Source: Trinickia caryophylli (GTDB lineage Bacteria > Pseudomonadota > Gammaproteobacteria > Burkholderiales > Burkholderiaceae). Taken from it: a DNA stretch of 64,000 bases. Positions 3,830 through 20,148 of this stretch are shown piece after piece (position 1 is the stretch's first letter; each line of letters starts with the position of its first letter). Under the pieces are notes generated by a model that saw nothing but the letters and a program-made list of their open reading frames with translations, was not told where the DNA came from and did not search any database. Location of the stretch: contig NZ_CP139970.1 of NCBI RefSeq assembly GCF_034424545.1, forward strand, positions 4,230,908 through 4,294,907, given 5' to 3'. The position numbers and the translations under genes are program-made.

Positions 3830-3845
3830 ATGCGTATGCATGTAT
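3830..3845. promoter_or_regulatory. Motif ATGCGTATGCATGTAT upstream of thiolase
   Basis: A 16-base AT-richer motif about 50 bases upstream of the thiolase start, next to a perfect palindrome GGAATGCATTCC at 3809-3820. It matches 14 of 16 bases with the sequence at 18832-18847 in the gene-free region upstream of the polyyne operon. Possible shared regulator site; no regulator is assigned. Confidence 0.3.
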
Positions 3846-3886
3846 TTGAGGCTGCAGCCGCATCATACTACGCAACGGTGCTTTGG

Positions 3887-3900
3887 ATGACGATCGTCAT
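3887..3900. promoter_or_regulatory. Operator-like perfect palindrome upstream of thiolase
   Basis: ATGACGATCGTCAT is a perfect 14-bp palindrome. Allowing one mismatch it extends to 24 bp (3882-3905; outer arms TTTG / CAAA). It lies between the TetR-family gene, which ends at 3992, and the thiolase start at 3778. Size and symmetry suit a TetR dimer site. Confidence 0.5.
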
Positions 3901-3991
3901 GCAAATGCCCGGGTAGCGCTTGTTCAGCGGCAGGGTCGTGCCAAGGCGGGCGGCGAAGAGGAGGGAAGGTAGGTGTGGTGATGCGTGCGCG

Positions 3992-4564: not shown

Positions 4565-4620
4565 GGCATCACCATGAAGATAAAGAGCCTTGAGGGAGAC
4601 CGAAACGTCGAGCGCGCCGC

Positions 4621-5055
4621 TTACCCGGCCAGCGCCTCGGTGACCGCATAAACCTCATCGCCGAACGCCTGGATGTCGCGCTTGCCGATGCGGCGCGCGA
4701 GTTCCTTTTGCGCCTCTTCCCAGTCGGGCAGGCAAGCCTCGAGTAGCGTGCCGCCCTTGCGCGTGAGGCTCCAAAGCCGCATTCTCCGGTCTTCATCAGC
4801 GGTTTGCGCGCTGACGAGCTTGCGTGTTTGCAGCGTGGCGAGCGTGCGGCTCAACGTCGTCTGGTCGAGCAACAGCAGCGTCGACAGCAACCCGGTCGAT
4901 AGCTTTTCGCCACCGCGCAGGGCCATCAGGATCGTGAACTGCGTGATGCGGATTCCGTGCTTCGCGAGCCGCGCATCGTACAACGATGTCACCGCGCGCG
5001 CGGCTTGCCGCAGCGTGCCGCAATGGCAGTTCAATCTCAGCGGACCTTGGCTCAC
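4621..5055 (-). CDS. MarR family transcriptional regulator of the efflux operon
   Basis: 144 residues with a winged helix (LLLLDQTTLSRTLATLQTRKLV, then the wing DEDRRMRLWSLTRKG). The start is GTG at 5055, preceded by an excellent AAGGAGGAG site. Two cysteines close to the N terminus (LNCHCG) might act as a redox or electrophile sensor; this is inference. It is the last gene behind emrA-emrB-outer membrane factor, 74 bases after the latter's stop. Genomic pairing of MarR with EmrAB pumps usually means local repression relieved by the pump's substrates. Confidence 0.9.
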   Translation of the reverse strand: MSQGPLRLNCHCGTLRQAARAVTSLYDARLAKHGIRITQFTILMALRGGEKLSTGLLSTLLLLDQTTLSRTLATLQTRKLVSAQTADEDRRMRLWSLTRKGGTLLEACLPDWEEAQKELARRIGKRDIQAFGDEVYAVTEALAG

Positions 5056-5129
5056 GACCTGCTCCTCCTTGCATACGGCCGGTTTGCCGACATTCTATGC
5101 TATTGCATTGAAATTCGCGCGAAGCGGCG

Positions 5130-6626
5130 TCAGCGGCTCGCCGCGACCGTCGGATCATCGCTGTGCCAGCCCCCGCCGAGTGCGCGGAAGGTCGCAACGG
5201 CGGCTCGCGCATGATCGGCTTTCAGTCGCGCGAGTTCCGCGCGTGCCGAGAGCAGTTGCCGATCCTCGATCAGTACTTCCACAAGGCTCGCATCTCCTTG
5301 CGCGTACGCTTCGCGCGCAGCGCGCTGAGCGGCCGCCTCGGCGTCCACCTCGCGTGCGACTTCGTCGCGTTGCTCGCTCACGTGCGCCCACATGGTGACG
5401 GCGTTCTCGACGTCTTCCGCCGCGCGCAAAACCGCCTGCCTGTATTGCGCGAGCGCTTCCGCATAGCGGCCTCTCGCATGCGCCACCTCCGCATCGACAC
5501 GGCCGAAGTCGAATAGCCGCCAGCGCAGTCCGGCGAGCGCGCCCGGCTGGAACGCGGCCGACTTGAAGAGCGGACCGTTCAATGCCTCGAAGCCGAGAAT
5601 GCCGGATAGCGAAACGTGCGGATAGTATTCGGCGAGTGCGCTGCCGATCTCCGCGTTGGCGGCCGCGAGCCGGCGTTCGGCGGCGACGACGTCGGGTCGC
5701 CGCCGCAGCAGTGCCTCGGGACGGATGTCGCCGGACAGCGCCGGGACCGAGAAATCCGCGGCCGCAGCGGCGAGCTCGGCGGAGAACGTGCCCGGTGGCG
5801 AGCCCATCAGAATGTCGAGCCGGTTCGATTCGCGCACGCGTTGCGCGTCGAGCGGCGGCAAGAGCGCGCGCGTCTGTGCGAGACGCGCATCGGCTTCGGC
5901 TGCCTCTCGGCGCGTGGCGACGCCGTTTGCCACGCGGTCGCGCACGAGCGAGGCAAGGCGCGCGTTTGCATCGATCTGCTCTTTCACGATCGCGATGTTC
6001 GCCTGCAGCCCGCGCAGCCTGAAGTAGGCATCGGCGGCGTCGGCCGCGACCGACACGCGCGTGCCCGCATGGAGCGCGTTGGCCGCCTGCGCCTCGGCGC
6101 GCGCCGCTTCGGCCGCACGGCGCTGGCCGCCCGCCAGATCCAGTTCCCAGCTCGCACCGACACCTAGCTGCGTGAGCGTCTGATTGCGGTCGTAGCCGGG
6201 CAGCGCGGAGCCTATCCGCCCGAGCGGCGATTCGAGCGACTGCCGCTGCCGTGCGGCGGAGCCTTGCAGGTCGATGCGAGGCAGATACGTGGCGCCTGCT
6301 TCCGCGGCGGCCGCGCGGGCCTGCGCGATTCTCGCCTCGGCCGCGGCCATGTCGAGGTTCTGCGCGAGCACGCGTTCGACGATGCGCGTGAGCGCTGGAT
6401 CATGAAAGTCGAGCCACCAGGTATCGAGCGAAACGGTGCTGGCGGGCGACGTGGTCTGCACGCTGTGCAGTGCGTCCTGGCTCGCGTATGCGCTGGCAAG
6501 CGGTGCTTGCACGGGCATGTAGTCGGGGCCGACCGCGCAGCCCGAGAGGGCGAGCATGCCTGCGAGCGGGAGTGCGGGGACGAGACGGGCGGCGGCGAAC
6601 AAGCGAAAGGGAAGCGTCGAAGGCAT
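5130..6626 (-). CDS. NodT/OprM-type outer membrane efflux lipoprotein
   Basis: 498 residues from ATG 6626. An N-terminal signal with lipobox LSGC puts the lipidated cysteine at residue 30, followed by AVGPDYMPV, the hallmark of NodT-family outer membrane factors. Two repeated coiled-coil OEP domains follow (the RRPDVVAAERRLAAANAEIG segment is diagnostic). It forms the outer membrane channel for EmrA-EmrB. A TTG at 6641 overlapping the emrB stop (TTGA) is an alternative start that adds five residues. Ends in GGGWHSDDP, typical of Burkholderia homologues. Confidence 0.93.
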   Translation of the reverse strand: MPSTLPFRLFAAARLVPALPLAGMLALSGCAVGPDYMPVQAPLASAYASQDALHSVQTTSPASTVSLDTWWLDFHDPALTRIVERVLAQNLDMAAAEARIAQARAAAAEAGATYLPRIDLQGSAARQRQSLESPLGRIGSALPGYDRNQTLTQLGVGASWELDLAGGQRRAAEAARAEAQAANALHAGTRVSVAADAADAYFRLRGLQANIAIVKEQIDANARLASLVRDRVANGVATRREAAEADARLAQTRALLPPLDAQRVRESNRLDILMGSPPGTFSAELAAAAADFSVPALSGDIRPEALLRRRPDVVAAERRLAAANAEIGSALAEYYPHVSLSGILGFEALNGPLFKSAAFQPGALAGLRWRLFDFGRVDAEVAHARGRYAEALAQYRQAVLRAAEDVENAVTMWAHVSEQRDEVAREVDAEAAAQRAAREAYAQGDASLVEVLIEDRQLLSARAELARLKADHARAAVATFRALGGGWHSDDPTVAASR

Positions 6627-6637
6627 CGGGCGAATTC

Positions 6638-8230
6638 TCAATGAGCGTTCTTCGTCGGACCGGGCGAGGGGGGCGTGACTTTGCGCATCAGCGGCACAAT
6701 CAGCGTGGCGAAGAGAAAGCCGATCATGATCGTCGACAGTGCGTCGCCATACGCCATCGTCTGTGCTTCGCGAAACGCGATGTTGTGCAACTGCTCGAGC
6801 GTGGCCACGTGCGCGGCCTGGGGCGAGCCGAGCGCGAACGAGAGATGGGTATCGAGTTTGCCGAGCATGTCGAGCATCGGTGCGTTCGCACTCGTGAGCC
6901 GTGAGGCGATGTCATGGAAATGCTGGTTCGTGCGGTCGTTGAGAATCGCGCCCACCACGGCGATGCCGACCGCGCCGCCGAGGTTGCGCATCATGTTGAA
7001 GAGGCCGCTCGCGTATTTCAGGCGCTCCGGAGTCAGGCTGCCGAGCCCGAGCGTGACGGCGGGCGCGATCGCGAACACCTGCGGAAACCCGCGCAGCAGT
7101 TGGGGCCACAGCAGTTGATCTCCGCCCCAATCGTGCGTGATGAAGCGCATGTCCCACATCGACAGTCCGAACATCGCCATGCCGAACATCATCAGCCAGC
7201 GCAGATCGGTCTTGCGCGCGAACATGACGTAGACGGGCACGCCGATGAGTGCGGCGATGCCCGTCGGCATCATTGCGATGCCGGTTTGCCACGCGTTATA
7301 GCCGCGCACGTAGCCGAGAAAGAGCGGCGTCAGGTAGATCGACGAAAATGCGCCGACGCCGGTCAGAAAAGACAACGTGCAGCCGATCGCAAAATTGCGG
7401 TTGCCGAACGCGCGCAGATCGACGATCGGATTGTCGATGCTCAGGCAGCGTGCGACGAACACCAGCCCGGCGCACGCGGAGATCGCGATCGCGCGCGCAA
7501 TCGTGGCGTCGTCGAGCCAGTTCCAGCGTGCGCCTTCTTCGAGCACGTATTCGAGCGTGCCGAGAAAGATGGCCATCAGTACGATGCCGGGATAGTCGGC
7601 GGCGCGCAGCAACGAGTGATCCGGCTTGTCGATGTCGCCGCCGAGCGAAACGCCGAGCGCGACGAGCAGTCCCGGAATCAGATTCACGTAGAACAGCCAG
7701 CGCCAGTTCGCGGTTTCGGTGATCCACCCGCCCACGATCGGCCCGAGCGCGGGCGCGAGCGAGGCGATCGTGCCGATGACGGCGGCGGCGATCACGCGCC
7801 GCTTGCCGTCGAAGTAATGGAACGACGACGTGAAGACCGTCGGAATCATCGATGCGCCGAGCACCCCTTGAATCGCGCGAAACGCGATCATGCTCTCGAT
7901 GTCCCACGCGAGCCCACACAGCATGCTCGCGGCCGTGAAGCCGAGCGCAGAGGCCGTAAACAGCCTGCGCGTGGAAAAGACGCGCGTGAGCCAGCCCGAC
8001 ATCGGGATCACGGTAATTTCGGCGATCAGGTACGCGGTCTGCACCCAGCCGATCTCGTCTTGCGCGGCGTTCAGGCCACCGCCGATCTCCTGTAAAGACG
8101 AAGCGACGATCTGGATGTCGAGCAGCGCGACGAACATGCCCACGCACATGACGGCGAACGGCCAGGCAGGCGGCGTCGCGGCGGCGCTCGCCGCCTCGCG
8201 CGCATCGACGATTTGCGCGGTATCGCTCAC
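6638..8230 (-). CDS. DHA2-family MFS drug efflux permease, EmrB-like
   Basis: 530 residues from GTG 8230, which overlaps the emrA stop as GTGA; this coupling fixes the start, although the frame stays open far upstream. Fourteen transmembrane segments are expected for DHA2. Motifs seen are MFVALLDIQIVASSLQEIGGGL (TM1, DHA2 motif D1), the loop GWLTRVFSTRRLF (motif A) and GASMIPTVF (motif C region). Inner membrane proton-drug antiporter working with the adaptor EmrA and the outer membrane factor. Substrate unknown; its position beside a polyyne operon makes polyyne export a candidate. Confidence 0.92.
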   Translation of the reverse strand: MSDTAQIVDAREAASAAATPPAWPFAVMCVGMFVALLDIQIVASSLQEIGGGLNAAQDEIGWVQTAYLIAEITVIPMSGWLTRVFSTRRLFTASALGFTAASMLCGLAWDIESMIAFRAIQGVLGASMIPTVFTSSFHYFDGKRRVIAAAVIGTIASLAPALGPIVGGWITETANWRWLFYVNLIPGLLVALGVSLGGDIDKPDHSLLRAADYPGIVLMAIFLGTLEYVLEEGARWNWLDDATIARAIAISACAGLVFVARCLSIDNPIVDLRAFGNRNFAIGCTLSFLTGVGAFSSIYLTPLFLGYVRGYNAWQTGIAMMPTGIAALIGVPVYVMFARKTDLRWLMMFGMAMFGLSMWDMRFITHDWGGDQLLWPQLLRGFPQVFAIAPAVTLGLGSLTPERLKYASGLFNMMRNLGGAVGIAVVGAILNDRTNQHFHDIASRLTSANAPMLDMLGKLDTHLSFALGSPQAAHVATLEQLHNIAFREAQTMAYGDALSTIMIGFLFATLIVPLMRKVTPPSPGPTKNAH

Positions 8231-9309
8231 CGGTCGGCTCCGCGCGTGTCGACGGTCACGATCGTGGAAAGGCCGGGGCGCAGCGTGCCGAGTACGGCAT
8301 CGGCATCGTCGAGCGCGATGCGCACCGGCACGCGTTGCACGATCCGCGTGAAGTTGCCCGTCGCGTTTTGCGGGGGAATCACGCTGAATACGGCGCCCGT
8401 CGCTGGCGCGAAACCGCGCACGACACCATGGAAGCACTTCGACGGCAGAATGTCCGCGCAGACCTTCGCGGGCTGCCCGGGCTTCATGTGCGTCAGTTGA
8501 TCTTCCTTGAAGTTCGCGTCCACCCACATGCCGCGCGCGGCGACAACCGACATCAATTGCGTGCCCGGCGTCACGTAGCTGCCGACGTGCGCGGCACGGT
8601 TGCCGACGTAGCCGTCGATCGGCGCCGTGAGCTCCGTGTAGCCGAGGTTCAGGTCCGCCTTGCGCAGTGTCGCGCCCGCGCGCTTGAGCGATGCGTCGGC
8701 CTCGGCGATCTTGCCGTCGAGCACCGCGATCTGCTGGCGTGCGGCGCGCAGTCGCGCCGTCGATGCGTCGAGCTGCGCCTTCGCCTGTTTGAGCGCCGCA
8801 TTCGAGCGCTCTTCGCTTTGCCGTGTGCCCGCTTCGGTGGCCACGAGCCTGCGGTAGCGCGCGGCGTCCGCCTGCGCGAAGCTGAGCGCGGCTGTCTTGT
8901 CGGCGACATCGGCGCTCGCCTGTTCGATCGCCGTTTGCTGCAAGGCGCGCTCGGCGGCGAGTTGCTCGCGCGTGGCGCGCATCTCTGCCTGGGTTGCCGT
9001 TGCCGCATCACGCTCTGCCTGGAAGTCGCTCTGATGCAGGCGCAGCAACGGCTGCCCCGCGTGTACGCGTTGGTTGTCCTCCACGAGCAGCTCCGAAACA
9101 TAGCCGGCGACATGCGGCGAGATCACGGTGATGTTGGCGCCGACATACGCATCGTCGGTCTTTTCGATGAAGCGGCCGGTGAGCCACCAGTAGACGCCAT
9201 ACGCGATGAGCGCGATCAGCAGCGCAATCACGACGGGCAGCACGAGCCTTGGGCGTTTGCGGGTAGTGCGGTCCACGGACACGGGCGCGTCGGAACGAAT
9301 GTCGCTCAC
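8227..9309 (-). CDS. EmrA-like periplasmic adaptor (HlyD/membrane fusion protein)
   Basis: 360 residues. Single N-terminal transmembrane helix at about 19-45, then the biotinyl-lipoyl half-motif (NITVISPHVAGYVSELLVEDNQRVHAGQPLLRL), a long coiled-coil hairpin rich in Ala, Gln and Arg (about 100-210), and the second lipoyl half (TELTAPIDGYVGNRAAHVGSYV). It bridges the MFS permease and the outer membrane factor. First gene of the efflux operon. The promoter should lie in the AT-rich stretch near 9380-9420, where TGATA-TTAC-TATCA (9387-9400) is a possible MarR site. Confidence 0.94.
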   Translation of the reverse strand: MSDIRSDAPVSVDRTTRKRPRLVLPVVIALLIALIAYGVYWWLTGRFIEKTDDAYVGANITVISPHVAGYVSELLVEDNQRVHAGQPLLRLHQSDFQAERDAATATQAEMRATREQLAAERALQQTAIEQASADVADKTAALSFAQADAARYRRLVATEAGTRQSEERSNAALKQAKAQLDASTARLRAARQQIAVLDGKIAEADASLKRAGATLRKADLNLGYTELTAPIDGYVGNRAAHVGSYVTPGTQLMSVVAARGMWVDANFKEDQLTHMKPGQPAKVCADILPSKCFHGVVRGFAPATGAVFSVIPPQNATGNFTRIVQRVPVRIALDDADAVLGTLRPGLSTIVTVDTRGADR

Positions 9310-9632
9310 CTGTCGAATCTCCTCTTGCGATTACGCGTTCGAAATGCGGGAAGCTCATGCCGCCGGACAGGCCGCTCCGCAACTTTTGATATTACTATCA
9401 TCATATAAAGAATCGTTGTCAAGCAAGGCCTGCGCGCGGGGGGGCGGTTGCGGGGCGAAACAGAAAAGGAAACGGAAAAGGAAAAGGAAAACGCGGACGC
9501 GGGGCGGAGGCGGGCCGCGGGCACGACGCGCCGCGGGCGGCACTCACGCACGAGCGCGCGGCATCCGCTCGGGCATGCAGGCCGGTCGACGCAGCGAACC
9601 GGCCTGCATGCGAGGACGCGAGGCGTAACGCG
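9310..9632. other. Intergenic region between efflux and polyyne operons
   Basis: No gene. It holds the likely emrA promoter (an AT-rich patch at 9380-9420 with the inverted repeat TGATA/TATCA at 9387-9400), a purine-rich GGAAAA-type tract at about 9460-9490, and the strong hairpin at 9574-9610. Confidence 0.6.
9574..9610. terminator. 13-bp hairpin after the polyyne operon
   Basis: CATGCAGGCCGGT (9574-9586) and its exact complement (9598-9610) around an 11-base loop, 23 bases beyond the P450 stop. No T-tract follows on the minus strand, so it may be a non-canonical terminator or an mRNA 3'-end stabiliser for the operon. Confidence 0.5.
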
Positions 9633-10829
9633 CTACCAGGTCGCGAGCAGCGAATCGACGCCGCGCAGCGCATTGTTGCGCCGGTAGTTCAGCGTATCGA
9701 CGTTGGTGAGCTGCAACTTCGGCAGGCGTTCGAACAGCGTTTCGAGGGCCGCTACGATTTCGAGCGTCGCCAGCCTCGCACCAAGGCAATAATGCAGCCC
9801 GTTGCCGAACGACAGGGGGCGCACACCCTCGCGATCGATCTTGAGCGTGTTCGGATCGTCGAACTGCTTCGGGTCGCGATTGCCACCGCCCAGGAACACG
9901 CAGACAAGGTCGCCACGCTGCAGCTCGTGACCGTCGATTTCGAGGTCTTCGAGGGCGACGCGCTGCGCGATCAGCACCGAACTATCGTAGCGCAGGCACT
10001 CGTTCACCACGGCTGGCAAAATCGCCGGGTCCGTTTTGGCGCGTGCGAACGCATCGGGGTGGTGATGCAGTGCGATCAGCGAGTTGCCGATCATGTTCTC
10101 GGTTGTTTCATGACCGGCGACGAAGAGGAAACACAGGTTCGCGACGATTTCGTCGTCGCTGAGCCGCTCGCCGTCTTCCTCCGCGAGAATCATCTGGGAG
10201 ATCAGGTCGTCGCCAGGCTGCCTGCGGCGCTCGGCCAGCACGCGGCCGAAATAGGCCTCCAGTTCCAACGCCGATTGTTTCGCGACTTCGAGCTGCTCGG
10301 CATTGAGCGGAGTCACGTTGAGTGCGCCGGCCGCATTGTCGGCAGCCTTTTTGAACATCGCGGCGTCCTCGAGCGGCACGTCGAGAATCGTGCAGATGGT
10401 TTGCATCGGCAGAAGGAATGCAAAGCCGCTGACGAGATCTCCTTGCGGCTCGCGCGCGAGCTTGTCGATGAGCCGGTTCGAGATCGTGTATGACGCTTCG
10501 CGAAACTTTTCGACCTGCCGTGCGTTGAACGACTTCATGATGAGCGCACGCAGATGCGTGTGCTTCGGCGGATTAAGGCCCGGCAGCATCGAGCGGAACG
10601 TGCGAAACGGCGGCTGATCGATCACGCCTTCGCCATAGCGTGCCTTCACCGCTTCGACGATGCCCTTGCCGAACCGGCGATCGAGCAGCAGCTTTTCGCC
10701 GAACGCGTAATGCGCCGTCGCATAGAGTTTCGGCGCGAGCCTTACGAGTTCGCCTTCGTCCCGCATGGCATCGAAAATCGGGTACGGATTGGCGAAGTAC
10801 TCGGGTGTCGAAAGATCGCTGTATTGCAT
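9633..10829 (-). CDS. Cytochrome P450 of the polyyne cluster (CayG-like)
   Basis: 398 residues from ATG 10829 (AAGGA 11 bases upstream; a GTG at 10874 is a weaker choice). Soluble bacterial class I P450: I-helix AGHETT at 238-243, K-helix E277-C-L-R280, and heme loop FGNGLHYCLG with the iron-ligand Cys348. Last gene of the polyyne operon. In the caryoynencin cluster a P450 (CayG) hydroxylates the chain late in the pathway with allylic rearrangement. The same role is inferred here from cluster order, not from sequence alignment. No ferredoxin reductase is encoded nearby, so electrons must come from elsewhere, possibly with the cluster rubredoxin. Confidence 0.93.
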   Translation of the reverse strand: MQYSDLSTPEYFANPYPIFDAMRDEGELVRLAPKLYATAHYAFGEKLLLDRRFGKGIVEAVKARYGEGVIDQPPFRTFRSMLPGLNPPKHTHLRALIMKSFNARQVEKFREASYTISNRLIDKLAREPQGDLVSGFAFLLPMQTICTILDVPLEDAAMFKKAADNAAGALNVTPLNAEQLEVAKQSALELEAYFGRVLAERRRQPGDDLISQMILAEEDGERLSDDEIVANLCFLFVAGHETTENMIGNSLIALHHHPDAFARAKTDPAILPAVVNECLRYDSSVLIAQRVALEDLEIDGHELQRGDLVCVFLGGGNRDPKQFDDPNTLKIDREGVRPLSFGNGLHYCLGARLATLEIVAALETLFERLPKLQLTNVDTLNYRRNNALRGVDSLLATW

Positions 10830-10877
10830 GGGGGTTCGAGTCCTTTGATTGTGAACGGGAAGGGGACTGGGCACCGC

Positions 10878-11063
10878 TCAGATGCGAACCATCTCGAAGT
10901 CGCTCTTCGGCACGTCGCATTCGGGGCAGCGCCAGTCGTCGGGAATGTCTTCCCAGCGCGTGCCCGGTTCGATGCCGGCTTTCGGGTCGCCGGCCGCTTC
11001 GTCATACAGGTAGCCGCATATCAGGCACATCCATGTGCGGTATTCGATGGCGATGTCGGACAT
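10878..11063 (-). CDS. Rubredoxin of the polyyne cluster
   Basis: 61 residues with the four iron ligands in two knuckles: C13-L-I-C16-G-Y and C46-P-E-C49, joined by the family's [23 protein letters not shown] stretch. An AGGAG site precedes the ATG. It is a one-electron carrier and lies between the diiron protein gene (15 bases upstream) and the P450 (48 bases downstream). By analogy with AlkG serving the membrane diiron hydroxylase AlkB, it may feed electrons to the cluster desaturases, the ferritin-like protein or the P450. Confidence 0.95.
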
Positions 11064-11078
11064 CTACGATTCTCCTCG

Positions 11079-11942
11079 TCAGCCGTGCAACGCGGGTTCC
11101 GCGTCCGCATCGACGGGGCTTTGGTTAAGTTGTTTGCGCAGGCGATGCAGATCCTTGAGCGTGAGCAGCGGGCACTCGAGAAGAATCGCCAGGTTGTGCA
11201 GAATGCGGTCCGCGACGCGGCTCTCCCATTCGCGGTCGAAATGAATTTGCGCGTCCAGCCAGTGGCTGAGCCATTCGGGGTCCGGAAGCCGGCTTTGCAC
11301 CGTATCGTTCGGAAAGAGCGACCGGTTGACATGCAGGTTCGTCGGGTGAATGGCCTTGGCCGAACGGTTGCCGCTCGCCATCAGCGTGCCGATCTTCGCG
11401 AACGCGCGGCGTGCATCGTCGCCATGGCGTTCGAGCGCGCGCCGCATGTACTTCAGGTAGGCGGCGGCGTGCCGCGCCTCGTCGCGCGAGATGAGCTCGT
11501 AGATCTGCCGGATCACCGGCTCCGTGTGCCATTGCGCGGCGCAGCGGTACCAGTGGTTGAGGCGGATTTCGCCGCCGAAATGCAGTGTCAGCGTCTCGAG
11601 TGCGGGTGCTGGATCGAACGGAAAGCGCACCGCGTGCAGTTCTTCCTCGCTTGGCGCGAGATCGGGGCGGAACCGCCGCAGATACTCGATCAGCACCAGC
11701 GAATGCTTCTGCTCCTCGTAAAACCAGATCGACATGAATGCCGAGAAATCGCTGTCGTCCTGGTTGTCGCGCAGGAACATCTCCGTAGCCGGCAGGGCGG
11801 CCCATTCGGTGATCGCGTTCATCTTGATCGAACGCGCCTGATCCTCCGAGAGCCGCCTCGGGTCGAAGCGATCCCAGGCGACGTCGCGCTGCATGTCCCA
11901 GCGCGCGCGCTCGAGACTCGTGAACAGTTCGGGATAGAGCAT
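11079..11942 (-). CDS. Ferritin-like diiron oxygenase/desaturase of the polyyne cluster
   Basis: 287 residues from ATG 11942 (GAGGAG upstream; an in-frame TTG 5 codons earlier is unlikely). Soluble four-helix-bundle diiron protein. Two ExxH ligand pairs are visible, E77-Q-K-H80 (in FYEEQKH) and E155-A-R-H158 (in RDEARHAA), with further carboxylates available at E46 or E54 and at E125. This spacing is that of the acyl-ACP desaturase / AurF / R2 superfamily. Within a polyyne operon it probably acts on the ACP-bound or released chain, for example as an extra desaturase or hydroxylase. The exact reaction cannot be told from sequence. Confidence 0.8.
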   Translation of the reverse strand: MLYPELFTSLERARWDMQRDVAWDRFDPRRLSEDQARSIKMNAITEWAALPATEMFLRDNQDDSDFSAFMSIWFYEEQKHSLVLIEYLRRFRPDLAPSEEELHAVRFPFDPAPALETLTLHFGGEIRLNHWYRCAAQWHTEPVIRQIYELISRDEARHAAAYLKYMRRALERHGDDARRAFAKIGTLMASGNRSAKAIHPTNLHVNRSLFPNDTVQSRLPDPEWLSHWLDAQIHFDREWESRVADRILHNLAILLECPLLTLKDLHRLRKQLNQSPVDADAEPALHG

Positions 11943-11953
11943 CGCCGCTCTCC

Positions 11954-12919
11954 TCAAGAATCGGCTCCGGAGGCCGCGCCAGTGCCTGCGCTCAGGAAGC
12001 CGGTCGTCCTTTCGAGCACATATGCGTCGGACAGAATGCGCACGTGACCGACCTTATCGATGCGCTCGAATGTCGTGTCCGGCAGCGCCGCCACGATGTT
12101 CTCCGCTTCGCAGATCGGCACGATCTTGTCGGCCGGGCTGTGCATCACGAGCATCTCTACCGCGAGTCCGCGACCGAGTGCGCCGATGTCCCAATGTTGC
12201 GGCGGCACACCGTTGCGGCGGTGCAGCTCCGCATACATTGCGCGCATCGTGCTCGGGCTCAACTGCAGAAAGCCGTTCGACCAGCGGTCGATGACGGCGG
12301 GTAGTGTGCACGGCGGTGCAAGCAGGACGAGCCGCGAGGGCGCCGCGGGGCCGAGCTCGGCGAGCGCGCCCGTGGATGCGATGCTGCCGAGCGAATGCGC
12401 GACGATTCCGTGCACTCCGCCGAGCGAGGCGATCGCGCCTTTCACCGCGTTCTTGAACGCGGTCATCGTCGTGACTGTCCCGGTGGACACGCCGTGCGCG
12501 GGAGCGTCGAACGCGGCCACGCGAAAGCCGGCTTTCACGAGCTTCGGCACGAAGGAGAACATCGTGCTGCTGTCGGCGCCCCAGCCGTGCACGAGCAGGA
12601 CGGTGCGCTCGGCGTTGCCCCATACGTGGCCGTGCGTCACGCCGTCGACACCTTCGATCGCAAAGCGTCGCGCACCGAGCGGCGTCACGTCCTTCGGCGG
12701 TTTCTTTCGATAGCCGCGCGTGTAGCCGAATACGTCGGTCGCGCGGCGCGCGGCCGCACGCGGCGAGACGGCGCTCAGGACGTCGACGTAGCCTTTCATG
12801 ACCCGCTGCCTGAACGGGAGCTGCGGCGGCGGGATCTGCGGCGGGACGGCGGCCGGCGCGGGCACGCTCACGTGGCCGGGCGCCGGGCGAAGAATGGACT
12901 GCTCTGTGGTATCGGACAT
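11954..12919 (-). CDS. Alpha/beta hydrolase, probable polyyne-releasing thioesterase (CayF-like)
   Basis: 321 residues from ATG 12919 (GGGGAAG upstream). Alpha/beta hydrolase fold with oxyanion motif HGWG (111-114), nucleophile Ser176 in IVAHSLGS, acid D264 (SPADKIVP) and H292 (VGHVRIL). The nucleophile elbow reads AHSLG instead of GxSxG. The first 40 residues are proline-rich and likely disordered. In polyyne clusters the gene after the third desaturase encodes the hydrolase that frees the fatty acid from ACP; that role is inferred from this position. Confidence 0.88.
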   Translation of the reverse strand: MSDTTEQSILRPAPGHVSVPAPAAVPPQIPPPQLPFRQRVMKGYVDVLSAVSPRAAARRATDVFGYTRGYRKKPPKDVTPLGARRFAIEGVDGVTHGHVWGNAERTVLLVHGWGADSSTMFSFVPKLVKAGFRVAAFDAPAHGVSTGTVTTMTAFKNAVKGAIASLGGVHGIVAHSLGSIASTGALAELGPAAPSRLVLLAPPCTLPAVIDRWSNGFLQLSPSTMRAMYAELHRRNGVPPQHWDIGALGRGLAVEMLVMHSPADKIVPICEAENIVAALPDTTFERIDKVGHVRILSDAYVLERTTGFLSAGTGAASGADS

Positions 12920-12944
12920 CGCGGCTTCCCCTGGCTGAATGACG

Positions 12945-14045
12945 TCAGACCGCTGCATCGGCCTTGGGCGGCGTCGGCGCAGCCGGCGTCGCGATGGTCT
13001 CGAACGACTGGTAATAGCCGTGCAGCGGATCGTAGAGGTGGCACGAGCGGATCACTTTCCAGACCTCGCCGGCCGTGAACGGCTTCTGGCGGATCGCCCC
13101 GGGATAGGCCTGCTTGAGCGCTTCGCGTGCTTTCGGCAGGTTGTAGAACGGGATCACCGGCACGACGTGGTGCGCCGTATGCACCGAAATGTTGTGCGTG
13201 AAAAAGTGCAGCCACTTCGGGTATTCGTAGTCGGTCGTCATCAACAGACGGCTTCCGTTCTGCGTCCAGTGCTCGCGCGTGAGGAACGGCAGATCATCCG
13301 AGATGTGATGCATCATCGTCGTCGTGCTGAACCACGCGTGGATGCCGAGCCACGGACCGAGAAAGTACAGAAAGAAGCCCTGCCAGCCGGTGAAGTAGAC
13401 GAGCGTCGGCAGGTAGACGACCGCGAACAGCAGCGTGACGGCGATCGAGCGGCGGACGTCGTTGCGCGCCTCGCGCTTCGGGAACATGCCCGGGCGGAAC
13501 CCGGAGTGCCGCTGATAGTTGACGGTGCCGAGCCAGAAAAGCCAACTGCGCGTGCTGCGATAGACGAACTTTTCCCATGGGCCCATGCGCCGGTATTGCT
13601 CCGGCAGCACAGGGCGCCAGTCGGTGTCCATCTCGAGGCTGTTCGTGTTGGCGTGATGCAGGTTATGCATGTGCCGCCAGCCGTGGAACGGATACAGCAG
13701 CGGGAAGAGCGAGATCTGGCCGAGGATGAAGTTGAACCGCCGGCTCTTCGAGAACGAGTTGTGGCCGCAGTCGTGCGCGATGCAAAAGAGCCCCCAGCCG
13801 CCGAGCCCGGCCGCGAGCCACAACGGAATGTAAAGTGCCCAGTGCGGCGCGTAGTACACGCCGACGACCGCGCCGACGTACAGCGCCGCGCTCGCGAAAA
13901 ATCCGAGCAGCCCGCGGGCCAGGCGCGGTTCGTACAGTTCGCGCGGGATGGCGTCGGCAAGCCGTTCGCCATCGAGTTCGTGAATCGCGTCGACGAACGC
14001 GCGGAAATGCTGCGTCTGCTGTCGGGGTAGCTGAATCGTTGCCAT
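12945..14045 (-). CDS. FAD2-type membrane fatty acid desaturase/acetylenase (CayE-like)
   Basis: 366 residues from ATG 14045. Integral membrane diiron desaturase of the delta-12 class. The three histidine boxes are H91-D-C-G-H95, H127-N-L-H130-H131 and H289-T-A-H-H293. Hydrophobic segments flank residues 45-90 and 200-240. This class includes plant acetylenases that turn double into triple bonds. In polyyne clusters the desaturase after the ACP gene is of this type and works with two delta-9-like partners. It lies 26 bases after acpP-like 14072-14395. Confidence 0.93.
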   Translation of the reverse strand: MATIQLPRQQTQHFRAFVDAIHELDGERLADAIPRELYEPRLARGLLGFFASAALYVGAVVGVYYAPHWALYIPLWLAAGLGGWGLFCIAHDCGHNSFSKSRRFNFILGQISLFPLLYPFHGWRHMHNLHHANTNSLEMDTDWRPVLPEQYRRMGPWEKFVYRSTRSWLFWLGTVNYQRHSGFRPGMFPKREARNDVRRSIAVTLLFAVVYLPTLVYFTGWQGFFLYFLGPWLGIHAWFSTTTMMHHISDDLPFLTREHWTQNGSRLLMTTDYEYPKWLHFFTHNISVHTAHHVVPVIPFYNLPKAREALKQAYPGAIRQKPFTAGEVWKVIRSCHLYDPLHGYYQSFETIATPAAPTPPKADAAV

Positions 14046-14071
14046 CGTATGTGCTCCTTGGGGCGTGCCGA

Positions 14072-14395
14072 CTACGCCTTGACTTCGGCGGAAGCGAGTT
14101 CGCTCGCGAGATACCGGGTGAGATCGTCGATGTTCTGGTATTCGAACAGCAGCGCCGGCGACAGACGCTGTTCGAGCAGCTTCTCGAGGTCTCCCGCGAC
14201 CTGCAGCGCGACGATGGAGTCGAGCCCATACGATTCGAACGAGCGAGCGGGGTCGATTTGCGACGAGGGCACGTCCAACTGCTTTGCGAGCCGCTCGACA
14301 AGCCACTTGTGCAGGTCGGCCTCGGTAATCGGCCCGGTTGCGCGCTTTTCCTCGGCGAGGCCGATCTTGCTGAACAGGCTCGAAATAAACGCCAT
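14072..14395 (-). CDS. Acyl carrier protein of the polyyne cluster (CayD-like)
   Basis: 107 residues. The phosphopantetheine site is Ser60 in SYGLDSIVAL, a type I PKS-like DSI motif rather than the DSL of fatty acid synthase ACP. The helical acidic core is extended by about 20 N-terminal residues. GGAG stands 8 bases before the ATG. It should carry the fatty acyl chain that the ligase loads and the three desaturases modify, as in jamABC, ttu and cay systems. Confidence 0.93.
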   Translation of the reverse strand: MAFISSLFSKIGLAEEKRATGPITEADLHKWLVERLAKQLDVPSSQIDPARSFESYGLDSIVALQVAGDLEKLLEQRLSPALLFEYQNIDDLTRYLASELASAEVKA

Positions 14396-14435
14396 GATGT
14401 GTACTCCGGTTGAGGTGACGAAACGGTTCGTGCGC

Positions 14436-15428
14436 TCAGGCAGCGTTGCGCCTGCGGACGCGGTCGATCATGTCGCGGCTCGGCGAGCGCAGCTCCCAGA
14501 CCACGCCGAGCTTGCCGAGCAGGGCGAGAATCCAGCCCGAGAGGTCCGGCTCCCACCAGCGCACGCCGTGGCGAAACCAGGCGGGGAACGCATGATGGTT
14601 GTTCTGGAGCCCCTCGCCGAATGTGAGAAACGCGACGATCCAGTTGTTCGTGCTGTGGTCGTTCGTGTCGAACGGCCGCGCGCCATAGCGATGGCAGATC
14701 GAGCCGACGCACCACGCGAACTGATTGGCAATGAACATTCGCGCAAAGCCTCCGAACACGAGGCCGGACAGTGCGCCGTGCCAGTTGCCGGTTGCGAAGC
14801 CGCCGATGCCGGCCGGAATCAGCAGGCCGAGTACGACCCAGTAGAAATAGGTCTGATTGAAGAAGAAGAGTGCGCGATCCTTCAGGATGTCCTGGGCGAA
14901 ATAGCTCCAGCTCGACATTTCCGGCGACATCATCCACGGCATGTGTGCATGCCAGAGCCCGCGCAACCGCTGGGCGCGGCTTTCTCCGCACAGATTCGGC
15001 GAATGCGGATCGCCGGGCCGGTCGCTGTATGTGTGATGACGACGATGCGTCGTGACCCAGAATAGAATCGGACCCTGTGCGGCCATCGAGCCGCAGATCA
15101 GGATCAGGGCCCTGAACCAGTTCGACGTCTTGAACGCGCGATGAGCGAGAAAGCGGTGGTAGCCGATGGATACGCCGGCCATGTGCAGCACGTACATGAC
15201 GGCGAAAAGCCATGCGTCGACCCACGTCGCCAATCCCACATAGAGCATCCATACGCCGGCGAGCGTGCCGGCGAACGGAATCGCCATGACGCCGAGTGCG
15301 GTCAACGCCTTGATACGTGCACCGCGCGCGTCGAGCACGCTGACGCCGCGCACGGGCGCGCTGTGGTCGGCCGGCGAGCCCTGGCCGGCCGGGTTCATCG
15401 GCAAATCTCCGGTTGACGGAATGTGCAT
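14436..15428 (-). CDS. Delta-9-type membrane desaturase, third box QNNHH (CayC-like)
   Basis: 330 residues from ATG 15428 (AGGAG 8 bases upstream). Acyl-CoA/acyl-ACP delta-9 desaturase family with HRFLAH (91-96), HRRHH (128-132) and WHAH (159-162). The third box reads QNNHH (275-279), Gln replacing the first His found in its neighbour. Four to five hydrophobic helices are visible. It forms a tandem pair with 15445-16374, 16 bases apart, which probably arose by an old duplication and then diverged. In polyyne clusters both members are needed with the FAD2-type enzyme to build the conjugated triple bonds. Confidence 0.92.
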   Translation of the reverse strand: MHIPSTGDLPMNPAGQGSPADHSAPVRGVSVLDARGARIKALTALGVMAIPFAGTLAGVWMLYVGLATWVDAWLFAVMYVLHMAGVSIGYHRFLAHRAFKTSNWFRALILICGSMAAQGPILFWVTTHRRHHTYSDRPGDPHSPNLCGESRAQRLRGLWHAHMPWMMSPEMSSWSYFAQDILKDRALFFFNQTYFYWVVLGLLIPAGIGGFATGNWHGALSGLVFGGFARMFIANQFAWCVGSICHRYGARPFDTNDHSTNNWIVAFLTFGEGLQNNHHAFPAWFRHGVRWWEPDLSGWILALLGKLGVVWELRSPSRDMIDRVRRRNAA

Positions 15429-15444
15429 GAGGGGGCTCCTGTGA

Positions 15445-16374
15445 TCACGATTGCGCGGCTTGCGCGGCGGGGCGTTCGGGGCGGCGCACGTCCCATACGA
15501 GGCCGAGCAGCGCGAGCAGCTCGATGAACGAGCCGGAAATGTCGAGCTGCCAGAAGTGCTGGCCGGTACGTGCGAGCGCCGGAAACGCGTGGTGGTTGTT
15601 GTGCCACCCGCCTCCGACAGCCGGCAGGGCGAGCCATGCGACATTGCGGCTCGCGTCTCGGGTGCGGTTCGGTCTCGGGCCGAAGCTGTGCGCAAACGAG
15701 TTGATTGCCCACGTGGCCTGGTCGACGAGAAATATCCGCATCAGCCCTCCCCACAGAAAACCCATCAAGGCGGAGTACGCAGTTCCGCCGATCAGCCAGC
15801 CGGCCGCCGCGGGAAGCGCGAGCCCGAGCGCGATCCAGGCGAAGTAGAGGCGGTTGAGTTGCACGATCCAGCGATCGCGCAGAAGGTCCGGCGTGAACTG
15901 GCTCCAGTTTTGGCGGCGCAGTGTGAAGAGCCACCCCACATGGGCGTGCCACATGCCGCGCAGCCGGCCGCGCAACCCGCTGCCATGCAGCCGCGGGGAG
16001 TGCGGGTCGCCTTCCTGATCGGTGAACGCATGGTGCATCCGATGCGTTGCCGCCCAGAACAGCACGGGACCTTGCGCGGCCATCGAGCCGAAGATCGCAA
16101 AGAGAGCGGTCACGATCGGCCCTGCCTTGAAAGCCTGGTGCGAGAAAAATCGATGCAGGCCCGCCTCGACGCCAAGCGCCGTGCACAGATACATCGATGC
16201 GAGCAGCCCGATCTCGAGCCGGCCGACCCCGTAGCGAATCGCAAGCGCCACCGTGGCGGCGGCACCGACGGTCGGGATGCCGACGGTGAGCCATGCGAGG
16301 CGGCGCTCGGTGATGCCGGTGCGATCGTCGAGCTGCACCGGGCGGGAAGACGCATGCGGATGCTGATGGTCCAT
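15445..16374 (-). CDS. Delta-9-type membrane desaturase with canonical boxes (CayB-like)
   Basis: 309 residues. Histidine boxes HRFFSH (74-79), HRMHH (111-115), WHAH (142-145) and HNNHH (258-262) are all intact, as in stearoyl-CoA desaturases and the alkyne-forming desaturase JamB. Hydrophobic helices lie at about 28-48, 53-70, 85-105 and 175-212. Second gene of the operon, 15 bases after the acyl-AMP ligase. It likely acts on the ACP-bound chain, placing the first double bond or turning it into the terminal alkyne. Confidence 0.92.
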   Translation of the reverse strand: MDHQHPHASSRPVQLDDRTGITERRLAWLTVGIPTVGAAATVALAIRYGVGRLEIGLLASMYLCTALGVEAGLHRFFSHQAFKAGPIVTALFAIFGSMAAQGPVLFWAATHRMHHAFTDQEGDPHSPRLHGSGLRGRLRGMWHAHVGWLFTLRRQNWSQFTPDLLRDRWIVQLNRLYFAWIALGLALPAAAGWLIGGTAYSALMGFLWGGLMRIFLVDQATWAINSFAHSFGPRPNRTRDASRNVAWLALPAVGGGWHNNHHAFPALARTGQHFWQLDISGSFIELLALLGLVWDVRRPERPAAQAAQS

Positions 16375-16389
16375 GGTGTCGTTTGCCTG

Positions 16390-18228
16390 TTATTCGCCAG
16401 TGGGGGAATAGGTCGCGAGCGCACGCGATAGCAACGCGTGCCGCGTCGCGTAGCGCTGGATCTTGCCGCTCGTCGTCAGGGGAATCGCGCCCATCGGTGC
16501 GAAATGAACGACGTGCGGTGCGGCGCCGAAATTCGCCGTCACGCGCTCGACGATCGCCTGACGCATCGATTGCAACTCGTTGGTGCCGAGGCGTTCTCCG
16601 CGGCGAAGCTCGGCGACGACGGCGATGCGCTCCGCGTCGCCGTCGTCGATCGAAAACGCGGCCACGCCGTTCGGGCGAATCCGCGTATCGGCTTCCTGCA
16701 CCGCAAGCTCGATGTCCTGGGGATAAAGATTGCGTCCCGCGACGATGATGAGATCCTTCATCCGGCCCGTGACGTAGAGCTCGCCGTTGCGCAGAAAGCC
16801 GAGATCGCCGGTCCGCATGTATCGCGCCGGCGAGCCGGACAGCGTGGCCTGAAACGTGTCGCGGCTTTCTCTCTCGCGCTTCCAATACCCGATGCCGACG
16901 TTCGGGCCACTGACCCATACTTCGCCGATCGCGCCATCGGGCACGGGATGTCCGTTCGCGCCGACGATGCGCACGTCGTGGCCGGGCGCCGGCACGCCGC
17001 AGCTTGCAAGCGGGAACGCGCGCGGGTCGTCGTCATCCACGGTTGCGGCTTCGCCGCGCGCGAGCTGGTCCTGGTCGACGACCGCGAAGGTCGGCGCGGC
17101 GCCATCCGGCTTGCCCGATACGAACACGGTGGCTTCGGCGAGGCCGTAGCACGGACCGAACGCGTCGGCGCAAAAGCCGCAGCGCGCGAAGCGGGCGGCG
17201 AAGCGCTCGAAGGTGCCTCGCCGCACAGGTTCGGCGCCGCAGTAGATCGCCTCGAGCGACGACAGGTCGAGCGCGGCAAGCGCGTCCTCGGCAATCGTGT
17301 CGCAGCAGAGGTCGAAGGCGAAATTGGGCGCGATCGTCGTCGTGACGCGATGGCGCGAAATGGCCTCGAGCCATCGCAGTGGCTGCTGGATGAAATGGCC
17401 GGGCGAGAGGATCAGCGTCGGGAACCCTTCGTAGATCGGCTGCAGGATGCCGCCCATGAGCCCCATGTCGTGGTAAGGCGGCAGCCACGTGCAGCCGATA
17501 CGAGCGCGCTCGCCGCCCATCCAGCTGCTCGCACAATGGCAGTTGCTGAGCAGATTGCCATGGGTGAGCATCACGCCTTTCGGATCGGAGGTCGATCCGG
17601 AGGTGTATTGCAGCAGCGCGAGATCCGAGGCGGCAACGAGCGGCAGATCCGATCCGGCTGCCGTCGCGGAATTAGATGTATATGCATGTGAATGCGCTAA
17701 AAGGACGGCTTCGGCCTCCAGCCAGCCGTCCTCCGGAAAAGAGTGCGGCAGCAGCGCGAGCACACGCTCGCGCAGCCGCGAGAAGCGGGCGTTGGTCAAG
17801 ATCAGCTCGGCTTGGGCGTCTTTTGCGATCAAGGCCAGCCGGCCGAGCGCACGCGTGCCCACCGGGGGGAACGACGGTACCGCCACCGCGCCGGCCATCA
17901 GTACCCCCATGAGTGCGGCGACGTACTCGATGCCGGCTTCGAACAACAACAGCACGCGCTTGCCGGTGGCACCGCGCTCGAGCAGGCTGCGGGCAATCGC
18001 AGTGGCCTGGCCGCATAACTGCACATAAGCGATCGGCACCTCGTCGCGCTCGCCGTCGACCAGGTGAATGAACGCGGTTTGCTCCGGCATGGCTGCGGCA
18101 CGCAGACGCAGTACGTCGATGAGCGTCTCGACGGGAGATTCGCCAAGCGTTGCAGGCGCGGCATGATTGGGACGAGCCGTCGACGGCGCGCGCACGTGCT
18201 CCACGATATCCGCTTGAAGATCGGTCAT
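16390..18228 (-). CDS. Fatty acyl-AMP ligase, polyyne cluster (CayA/JamA-like)
   Basis: 612 residues. Adenylating enzyme: P-loop YTSGSTSDPKG (208-218), YGLAEATVFVSG, TGDLGF, the hinge GRMKDLIIVAGRNLYPQDIE, and C-terminal catalytic lysine in TTSGKIQR. The FVSGK and YPQDIE motifs and overall layout fit the fatty acyl-AMP ligase branch, which loads ACP instead of CoA. First gene of the operon; start ATG 18228 has AAGGA 9 bases upstream. It should activate a C16-C18 fatty acid for transfer to the cluster ACP. A short AT-rich patch with rare codons at 17668-17695 interrupts the otherwise high GC. Confidence 0.94.
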   Translation of the reverse strand: MTDLQADIVEHVRAPSTARPNHAAPATLGESPVETLIDVLRLRAAAMPEQTAFIHLVDGERDEVPIAYVQLCGQATAIARSLLERGATGKRVLLLFEAGIEYVAALMGVLMAGAVAVPSFPPVGTRALGRLALIAKDAQAELILTNARFSRLRERVLALLPHSFPEDGWLEAEAVLLAHSHAYTSNSATAAGSDLPLVAASDLALLQYTSGSTSDPKGVMLTHGNLLSNCHCASSWMGGERARIGCTWLPPYHDMGLMGGILQPIYEGFPTLILSPGHFIQQPLRWLEAISRHRVTTTIAPNFAFDLCCDTIAEDALAALDLSSLEAIYCGAEPVRRGTFERFAARFARCGFCADAFGPCYGLAEATVFVSGKPDGAAPTFAVVDQDQLARGEAATVDDDDPRAFPLASCGVPAPGHDVRIVGANGHPVPDGAIGEVWVSGPNVGIGYWKRERESRDTFQATLSGSPARYMRTGDLGFLRNGELYVTGRMKDLIIVAGRNLYPQDIELAVQEADTRIRPNGVAAFSIDDGDAERIAVVAELRRGERLGTNELQSMRQAIVERVTANFGAAPHVVHFAPMGAIPLTTSGKIQRYATRHALLSRALATYSPTGE

Positions 18229-18831
18229 ATATCGGTCCTTCGATTGTGGGCCAGCACTCGGCCATTACGAAACCTTCGCGCGCAAAACCACACGGCCGGC
18301 GTTCGAAACGGCGGTCCTGCATTGCATATTACTAATTCCCGGGCACGGCGAAGCCCCGCCCGGGAGGTGGCAATCGTAATTCTAATAAGGCGGCTCGACG
18401 CTGAAAGCGCGTCGCGAAATAAAGCGATTATTTAAATTTTCAGATGCGACGAATTCTCGGTGTCTCGTCTATTACATACGCTTCGCTTAACCGCGAAGCC
18501 CTCATTGGCGAAGCATTGGTTTGCCAATAAATCTCGGACTGCGAACGGTCAAACGACATCGCAACAGCCGCCCATCGCGGCGCGGGATCGCGGACGCGAT
18601 CGATTCCGCCGCAACAGCGGCATGCGAACAACGGGTAGACGGACGCGCGCTACGGGCGGCCCGCGGCCACCAAGGCGTTCCACCGGCGGAGTGCCATGCG
18701 CAAGACTCCACGCCAGTGAGAACCGCGCGCTTGCGCGACGGACGGCACGGCGACGTGCCCGCCGCCGGTGAGCGGCACCGGGAAGGGAAACGGCCTAGTA
18801 TTCATGAGCCCCTCGGAGGCAGATTATTTAT

Positions 18832-18847
18832 ATGCGTACGCATGCAT
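18832..18847. promoter_or_regulatory. Palindromic motif ATGCGTACGCATGCAT upstream of polyyne operon
   Basis: The first 12 bases form the perfect palindrome ATGCGTACGCAT, inside an AT-rich patch about 600 bases upstream of the acyl-AMP ligase. It matches 14 of 16 bases at 3830-3845 upstream of the thiolase. Candidate shared regulator site. Confidence 0.3.
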
Positions 18848-19272
18848 ATTTATTCAGTCTGGGACTAAAGTCAAGAGTATTCGCGAAAAATTTTATGCCT
18901 CTCTGCGGTGCGAAGCGTGGCGCGATATACGTATTATTGCGTAGGGATGGGGCTGATTTCGGTAACTGCGTGCGGCCGTCCACCTTGTAATGAAAGGAAA
19001 GCGAGAAGTCGGGCGCGCCGGCCGGTAAAACGGCACGATGCAACGGCGGCGAAAGCGCAATATCCAAAAGGAGAGTAAGTACACTAAGAATGGATTGGGT
19101 TTACCGGCTACGCACAACCGGGCCTTGGCGGGACTGTCGTCCGATCGTGCGTGTTCCGGATGGGTTTCGGCAAACAAGTGTTTCAAAAGCGCGAGCGAAA
19201 TGATTCGCAGTGGATTTCCCGCGGACTTCCAGGTCCTGCAGTGTGTTCGTCCCTTTCGCCAAGGCGAATAAA

Positions 19273-19300
19273 CGCGAGTCGAGGCGAGTCAAGGCGAGTC
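19273..19300 (+). repeat. Three-copy 10-bp tandem repeat (GCGAGTC core)
   Basis: The heptamer GCGAGTC recurs at exactly 10-base spacing three times, ending at 19280, 19290 and 19300, with a degenerate fourth GCGAAAG after it. One helical turn spacing could suit cooperative binding but may be simple slippage. Confidence 0.6.
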
Positions 19301-19387
19301 AGGCGAAAGCGCTGACTTGGGCGTGCCCTGTTTTCCGGAACGGCCTCTGCTTGCCGGAGCGCTGCCGCTTTCCTATAGAATGCCGCT

Positions 19388-19404
19388 TGTCACAATCCTG
19401 TCAC
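19388..19404 (+). promoter_or_regulatory. Pho box (PhoB site) upstream of DUF47-pit
   Basis: TGTCACAATCCTGTCAC: two TGTCAC half-sites 11 bases apart, the spacing and sequence of PhoB direct repeats. It is about 120 bases upstream of the DUF47 start. In Sinorhizobium the equivalent orfA-pit operon is under negative PhoB control, so low-phosphate regulation is likely here. Confidence 0.65.
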
Positions 19405-19465
19405 CCAGGCGGACGATGCGCAACGGGCGTTGTCGAGACGCTGCGGTTTGGGCGCCGCTGGCGCG

Positions 19466-19483
19466 GGTCTTATGTATAAGACC
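19466..19483. promoter_or_regulatory. Palindrome GGTCTTATGTATAAGACC before DUF47 gene
   Basis: Perfect 8-bp inverted repeat around GT, 39 bases before the DUF47 start. The TATAAG half could serve as a -10 element, so the palindrome may overlap the promoter as a repressor site, or form a 5'-UTR hairpin. Confidence 0.45.
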
Positions 19484-19521
19484 ATGATTTCATTGCAAGT
19501 TTAGGAACGGGCTACCTTTCT

Positions 19522-20148
19522 ATGTTTGGCCGATTCATGCCCACCGAGGGCAAATTCTTCGAAATCTTCGATGCGCACGCCAAGTGCATCGTGGCCGCGA
19601 GTCAAGAGCTCGAGCTTTTGATCGACAACCTCGGCGAAGCCGAGGTCCACAAGCAGCGGGTGCAGGCGAACGAAAAAGCCGCCGACAAGCTGACGCACGA
19701 GACGATCGATCTGCTCCACAAGACGTTCATCACGCCGCTCGACCGCGACGAGATCCACAAGCTCATTACGACGATGGACGACATCCTCGATCTGATGGAG
19801 GACGTCGCAACGGCCATTTCGCTTTACGACGTGCAGGCTGTGACCTCCGAGGCGAGCCAGCTTGCCCATATCTGCACGAACACGGCGAAGCACGTTCAGC
19901 AGGCCGTCAGCATGCTCTCCGACATGAGCCAGGCTCGCGCGATTCTCACGGCCTGCGAGGAGATCGACCGGCTCGAATCCGAAGCCGATCGGGTGTTGCG
20001 CGCCGCGATGTCGAAGCTCTTTCGCGAGGAAGACGACGTCAAGACGCTGATCAAGCTGAAGGCGGTCTACGAACTGCTCGAAACGGTCACCGACAAATGC
20101 GAGGATGTCGCGAACATCATCGAAGGCATCGTTCTGGAAAACGCCTGA
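19522..20148 (+). CDS. DUF47 family (PhoU-like) phosphate transport regulator
   Basis: 208 residues, all-helical PhoU-like protein of the DUF47/TIGR00153 family (LTHETIDLLHKTFITPLDRDEIHKLITTMDDILDLMEDV is the conserved core, about 55-95). Acidic metal-binding E/D-rich helices are present in both halves. It is paired with the Pit permease 22 bases downstream, the usual arrangement. It probably controls Pit activity or metal-phosphate uptake. A Pho box lies upstream. Confidence 0.93.
   Translation: MFGRFMPTEGKFFEIFDAHAKCIVAASQELELLIDNLGEAEVHKQRVQANEKAADKLTHETIDLLHKTFITPLDRDEIHKLITTMDDILDLMEDVATAISLYDVQAVTSEASQLAHICTNTAKHVQQAVSMLSDMSQARAILTACEEIDRLESEADRVLRAAMSKLFREEDDVKTLIKLKAVYELLETVTDKCEDVANIIEGIVLENA

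Follow-up and report, generated by a model that had tools for sequence, protein, structure and literature searches.

Which compound is made by the nine-gene operon at positions 9633-18228 of this stretch of the Trinickia caryophylli genome, and how far does the unit to which the operon belongs extend? The window analysed here comprises 64,000 nucleotides of contig NZ_CP139970.1 (positions 4,230,908 to 4,294,907), and comparison of its proteins, gene order and phylogeny makes it very likely that the operon is a polyyne cluster of the caryoynencin (cay) type. Each of the nine open reading frames is read from the minus strand. From the upstream end, and with protein identities to four Burkholderia loci (L039, L135, L137 and L138) in brackets, they encode a fatty acyl-AMP ligase (FAAL; 16390-18228, 70-74%), matched by the AMP-binding family of Pfam and by FAAL models of NCBIfam, two membrane fatty acid desaturases (desaturase 1, 15445-16374, 82-84%; desaturase 2, 14436-15428, 81%), an acyl carrier protein (ACP; 14072-14395, 77-79%), a FAD2-like desaturase 3 (12945-14045, 87-90%), an alpha/beta hydrolase (thioesterase; 11954-12919, 75-77%), a ferritin-like diiron protein (11079-11942, 87-88%), a rubredoxin (10878-11063, 79-89%) and a cytochrome P450 (9633-10829). 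With revised starts, the successive gaps are 15, 16, 40, 26, 25, 11, 15 and 48 bases. A preliminary description of this DNA had claimed a one-strand operon of nine genes with gaps of 11-48 bases, which the open reading frames and revised starts bear out, and the protein families that it proposed are matched by Pfam (AMP-binding, FA_desaturase three times, PP-binding, Abhydrolase, FA_desaturase_2, Rubredoxin and p450). The FA_desaturase_2 match is that of the ferritin-like protein, with an AurF-like match under the model cut-off. The translations show the histidine boxes of the desaturases, GLDSI in the ACP, AHSLG in the hydrolase, EEQKH and DEARH in the diiron protein, two CxxC motifs in the rubredoxin and the loop FGNGLHYCLG in the P450; the EExxH and DExxH motifs of the ferritin-like protein are conserved in 17 of 17 aligned sequences. 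In the cay nomenclature, the ligase would correspond to CayA, the P450 to CayG, the ferritin-like protein to CayK and the rubredoxin to CayL.

In the available excerpts of PMC8406139, polyyne clusters are defined by a ligase, three desaturases, an ACP, a thioesterase and a rubredoxin, and those of PMC9098870 give the gene order as FAAL-2xFAD-ACP-FAD-H/TE-Rd (FAD, fatty acid desaturase; H/TE, hydrolase or thioesterase; Rd, rubredoxin); the same excerpts describe the core enzymes and the rubredoxin as taking part in polyyne formation. This seven-gene cassette is complete in the window and follows the published order, as had been proposed earlier for the core from ligase to thioesterase, with the ferritin-like gene inserted before the rubredoxin gene. 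The main texts of these two papers do not contain the word "ferritin". An alkyne cassette consists of a ligase, a desaturase and an ACP alone (excerpts of PMC8406139), and a second FAAL-like frame stands before frames of non-ribosomal peptide synthetase (NRPS) size about 110 kb away in the same genome, both of which would suit an operon that supplies only a terminal-alkyne fatty acid to a polyketide synthase or NRPS (jamABC-like), or one that modifies membrane lipids. We consider such a function scarcely credible, since all four polyyne-specific additions (two desaturases, the thioesterase and the rubredoxin) are present and the core groups with polyyne clusters in the phylogeny described below. 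Nor is the arrangement of the nine genes a matter of chance, because the identical order recurs in L039, L135, L137 and L138 at 70-90% protein identity.

To place the caryoynencin-type assignment phylogenetically, five concatenated proteins were compared across loci. A scan of named genomes yielded at least 76 loci (best 80 matches), and the tree includes 51 of 80 loci (the 76 named loci, three further loci and the window); the remaining 29 were omitted, as one or more of the five genes lacked a match over 60% of its length. With support 1.0, the window groups with L039, L135, L137 and L138, and these five loci are sister to six Pseudomonas loci, again with support 1.0, with other Burkholderia, Collimonas and actinobacterial loci placed elsewhere. 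The preliminary description had named a grouping of the ligase and desaturases among unrelated lipid-modification families as the result that would speak against it; the window instead falls in the polyyne clade. Two of the six sister loci carry the name P. protegens, the species for which PMC8406139 reports protegencin production. The protegenin/protegencin (pgn) cluster has the ligase-to-rubredoxin core in the same order as the window, with desaturases 65-69% identical, but unlike the window it has no ferritin-like gene and no close P450. The sister position of the Pseudomonas loci, together with a P450 regiochemistry that is not fixed by sequence alone, leaves some room for a different product, namely a C18 polyyne related to caryoynencin but tailored in another way (a protegenin-like compound or a novel oxidised congener). 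We regard this as very unlikely: the Pseudomonas loci are without the ferritin-like protein and the close P450, whereas a species reported to make caryoynencin is among the closest relatives in which both are present.

Clusters of the C16 type, for cepacin (ccn), collimonin (col) and massilin (mas), have the seven-gene cassette in common with the window. Their Burkholderia and Collimonas representatives (L046-L050, L052-L055 and L095) are only 44-65% identical to the window in the core, form a separate clade and contain neither a ferritin-like gene nor a close P450. Among the 65 Burkholderia genomes sampled, a polyyne-type desaturase was found at E 1e-100 or better in 13. As side observations, polyyne-type core genes also occur in Xenorhabdus, a Ramlibacter metagenome-assembled genome, Aquabacterium and Alteromonas (L051, L068, L074 and L087), and Streptomyces griseofuscus carries polyyne-type clusters (L072 and L073) near both chromosome ends with equal gene matches, as for terminal inverted repeats.

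What ties the window to caryoynencin in particular is the pair formed by the P450 and the ferritin-like protein. The P450 has counterparts of 79-85% identity in four of the 65 Burkholderia genomes (G303, G308, G311 and G318), a fifth genome, G316, having a match of 44%, and the ferritin-like protein is found at 86% or more in exactly the same four. With both restricted to these four genomes, the pair serves in this sample as a marker of the caryoynencin type. Among the matches listed in the scan of named genomes, a ferritin-like gene together with a close P450 occurs in one of 76 loci, L039 (record titled Burkholderia multivorans WS-FJ9), and the P450 matches in the remaining loci are at most 32% identical. 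The earlier call of a CayG-type P450 agrees with the 79-85% identity to P450s of cay-type loci. Resident ferritin-like paralogues of 62-74% identity are common among the 65 genomes, and one of 71% is present in the window's own genome. In the region L141:5014-12759, this resident copy lies between patatin-like and cytidylyltransferase-like genes, and nearby genes encode a crotonase-fold protein and a type III pantothenate kinase. Two other roles for the operon's ferritin-like protein, that of an additional desaturase acting on acyl-ACP and that of a copy conferring self-resistance, were dropped, given that it keeps EExxH and DExxH and that resident paralogues exist. We retain it as a putative redox partner of the P450, since Kim, Ishida, Ishida-Ito and Hertweck (Angewandte Chemie, 2022) reportedly described the ferritin-like CayK or the rubredoxin CayL as serving the P450 CayG.

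According to excerpts of PMC10485841, caryoynencin production has been reported for B. gladioli, B. plantarii and T. caryophylli, and the B. plantarii locus, L137, is among the four closest relatives of the window in the five-protein tree. This placement supports the earlier suggestion of a caryoynencin-like polyyne, and on sequence grounds caryoynencin is most likely the product in this strain. In the proposed pathway, the ligase would adenylate a C18 fatty acid and so activate it for loading onto the ACP, and the three membrane desaturases/acetylenases would convert the ACP-bound chain to a terminal tetrayne with the rubredoxin as electron carrier. The alpha/beta hydrolase would then release the acid from the ACP, and the P450 would form the allylic alcohol with the ferritin-like protein and/or the rubredoxin as redox partner. 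The cay cluster and its pathway are already known, and the window very probably carries the known cay cluster of T. caryophylli. Since this species is already a described producer, little is newly predicted by the assignment as such: the cluster bears out an established antibiotic pathway, and very probably does so in the species from which caryoynencin was first obtained.

What the analysis adds concerns the flanks: the acquired unit measures about 17 kb, its site is empty in 10 of 10 relatives, and the thiolase that it carries does not belong with MasL, the thiolase of the massilin cluster. Of the extent given in the preliminary description, 9633-18228, the nine genes stand, but the same-strand genes run on to 2594, beyond what had been seen. 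The block spans 2511-19521, between dnaB on the left (1122-2510, plus strand) and, on the right, a PhoU-like gene (from 19522) and a PHO4-type phosphate transporter gene. Among 11 genomes of the Trinickia genus group the cluster is present in one, the window's own; in all 10 others the distance from dnaB to the PhoU-like gene is about 0.14-2.8 kb, against 17.0 kb in the window. DNA similarity to all 10 empty sites stops at 2500-2512 and restarts at 19518-19522. The unit that was acquired is thus larger than the nine genes and includes the pump, the regulators and the thiolase. Its order, thiolase-TetR-MarR-outer-membrane factor (OMF)-major facilitator superfamily (MFS) exporter-HlyD-P450-rubredoxin-ferritin-like protein-thioesterase-desaturase 3-ACP-desaturase 2-desaturase 1-FAAL, is the same in L135 (G318) and L138 (G303), and the B. 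plantarii locus L137 has the whole order except the thiolase. In G308 the two parts of the block lie on two contigs (L136 and L171), which were left unjoined.

We also considered a foreign base composition of the block and rejected it, as the biosynthetic part has 64.6% G+C against 64.4% in 19522-64000, and only 18229-19500 is lower. This last interval, 1.3 kb upstream of the ligase gene, is without an evident gene and has 57.6% G+C, compared with 64-67% in the adjoining parts; neither the empty sites of Trinickia nor the cay loci of Burkholderia match it at the DNA level. A scan for promoters and terminators returned 3 and 14 sites, respectively, against 2.6 and 12.9 in shuffled sequences.

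Downstream of the P450 gene, and likewise on the minus strand, the block encodes a periplasmic adaptor of the HlyD/EmrA type (8227-9309; family models), an EmrB-type MFS exporter (6638-8230; TIGR00711 above cut-off), the start of which is not settled, an outer-membrane efflux protein (5130-6641; OEP family), and regulators of the MarR type (4621-5055) and TetR type (3992-4564), both recognised by family search. An EmrAB/TolC-type pump of this kind may export the polyyne under MarR/TetR control. The pump and both regulators are likewise conserved in B. plantarii L137. As reviewed in the available excerpts of PMC9579380, the caryoynencin cluster measures 11 kb and has a resistance-nodulation-division (RND) efflux system and an HlyD secretion protein, whereas the block in the window has an MFS exporter of the EmrB type and a thiolase. 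The P450-to-pump gap of about 0.3 kb contains a hairpin with perfect 14-bp arms (9573-9611, minus strand), for which RNA folding gives a z-score of -2.14, with 5 of 200 shuffles as stable; it is absent from the list of the terminator scan, and perhaps forms the boundary between two transcripts.

The last same-strand gene of the block (2594-3841, minus strand) encodes an acetyl-CoA acetyltransferase with Thiolase_N and Thiolase_C domains, and is a possible self-protection gene. The comparison that suggests itself is with MasL of Massilia sp. YMA4, which is encoded in the massilin cluster. According to excerpts of PMC9098870, MasL is covalently inhibited by polyynes, and its expression rescues Candida albicans, so that for C16 polyynes a thiolase is both a shown target and a protector. 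The window thiolase likewise has the catalytic motifs and is encoded with a polyyne cluster, but it belongs to a different subfamily. Among NCBIfam models NF005404 fits it best, at 612 bits and thus below the cut-off of 687; the resident paralogue, at 775.6, exceeds that cut-off. MasL (7ei3) ranks only 27 among the solved structures that the window thiolase matches. The thiolase next to the C16-type cluster L048, by comparison, fits the BktB models best and has MasL as its first structure match. In a thiolase tree the window protein groups with the copies of cay-type loci and with those of G133, G186 and G314 (support 0.999), and this cluster-type clade stands beside the resident Burkholderiaceae copies (support 1.0). 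Structure rank, the comparison with L048, the tree and the NCBIfam fit together rule out the window thiolase as a MasL orthologue. The cluster-type thiolases keep the catalytic motifs, and at 43 positions seven cluster-type copies are consistently distinct from five resident ones; identity between the window copy and those in L135, L138 and L171 is 83-89%. No relevant paper was found on the molecules behind the solved thiolases 8gqk and 8gql. A search of the open-access literature, which excludes the papers first describing the cay genes, found no report of a thiolase in the caryoynencin cluster, and the available part of PMC9098870 does not mention one.

Does this thiolase protect its host? 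As an additional acetyl-CoA acetyltransferase it may stand in for a polyyne-sensitive thiolase, or buffer it, and its distribution gives some reason to think so. At 80% identity or more, the thiolase occurs in six of the 65 Burkholderia genomes, the cay-type G303, G308 and G318 together with G133, G186 and G314; in a wider family sample, 6 of 398 genomes, the window's own included, have it at E 1e-185 or better. Five of the six Burkholderia carriers have a polyyne-type desaturase, compared with 8 of the 59 others (Fisher p 0.0008, with relatedness ignored), an association that we treat as a lead only because sister genomes were counted separately. Two of these carriers, B. singularis (G133) and Burkholderia sp. 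TSV86 (G186), possess C16-type polyyne clusters (L054 and L055), around which no thiolase match above 80 bits was detected in 20.9 kb, that is, within about 10 kb on either side. Their thiolase lies instead in an HlyD-MFS-OMF-TetR-MarR-thiolase block without cay genes (L168:3161-10967 and L169:3106-10917), with no polyyne gene in the 19.9 kb around it and with the TetR and MarR genes, about 1.2 kb apart, swapped relative to the window. That two Burkholderia genomes have the pump, the regulators and the thiolase but no cay genes hints at a separable self-protection module.

Several observations weigh against a protective role. According to excerpts of PMC9098870, massilin C, described there as a protegencin analogue, showed no rescue by MasL, which in our analysis would count against general protection by thiolases from C18-like compounds. 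The P. protegens cluster is reported to have the AraC-type regulator PgnC and no thiolase gene of the MasL kind (excerpts of PMC12016544). B. plantarii has the cluster and no thiolase in the 35 kb around it, the best match in its genome being 62%; since it is a reported producer, the thiolase is not needed in every producer. G314 carries the thiolase and no polyyne desaturase at E 1e-100, and both there and in G023, from another genus (78%), the MarR-thiolase pair stands alone, without the pump, in the 19.9 kb around it; G023 is not among the 18 genomes with polyyne desaturase matches in the sample that covers it. A strict bond between the thiolase and polyyne clusters is ruled out by B. plantarii on the one side and by G314 and G023 on the other. 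We find the case evenly balanced that the neighbouring thiolase is an ordinary metabolic enzyme, the observations above being offset by its place inside the acquired block, by its concentration in genomes with a polyyne-type desaturase (13 of 65 overall) and by the C16 precedent. As a tentative proposal, to which we give somewhat less than an even chance, the HlyD-MFS-OMF pump, the MarR and TetR regulators and the derived thiolase would form a separable polyyne-immunity module, its thiolase having been recruited independently of MasL from a resident PRK06954-type enzyme. Two polyyne lineages would then have converged on a spare acetyl-CoA acetyltransferase as antidote, and the orphan copies of B. 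singularis and Burkholderia sp. TSV86 would protect in trans. If the thiolase does protect, acetyl-CoA acetyltransferase would be a vulnerable enzyme not only towards C16 but also towards C18 polyynes, and pump-regulator-thiolase blocks that stand alone could signal polyyne tolerance in genomes.

Two further observations concern the surroundings of the block. In five of the 11 Trinickia genomes (G003, G004, G006, G007 and G009; for example L151:871-3303), dnaB has 807-814 codons compared with 465 in the window, the long frames being split near residue 210-228 of the window DnaB by about 345 extra residues in an intein-like manner; Pfam DnaB is matched on both sides of the insert, and no intein family was matched. 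About 110 kb to the left of the window (G000:C1:4120676-4143689) lies the second FAAL-like frame (39%); the frames after it, of 5508 and 2133 codons, show adenylation-type matches and perhaps encode a lipopeptide NRPS.

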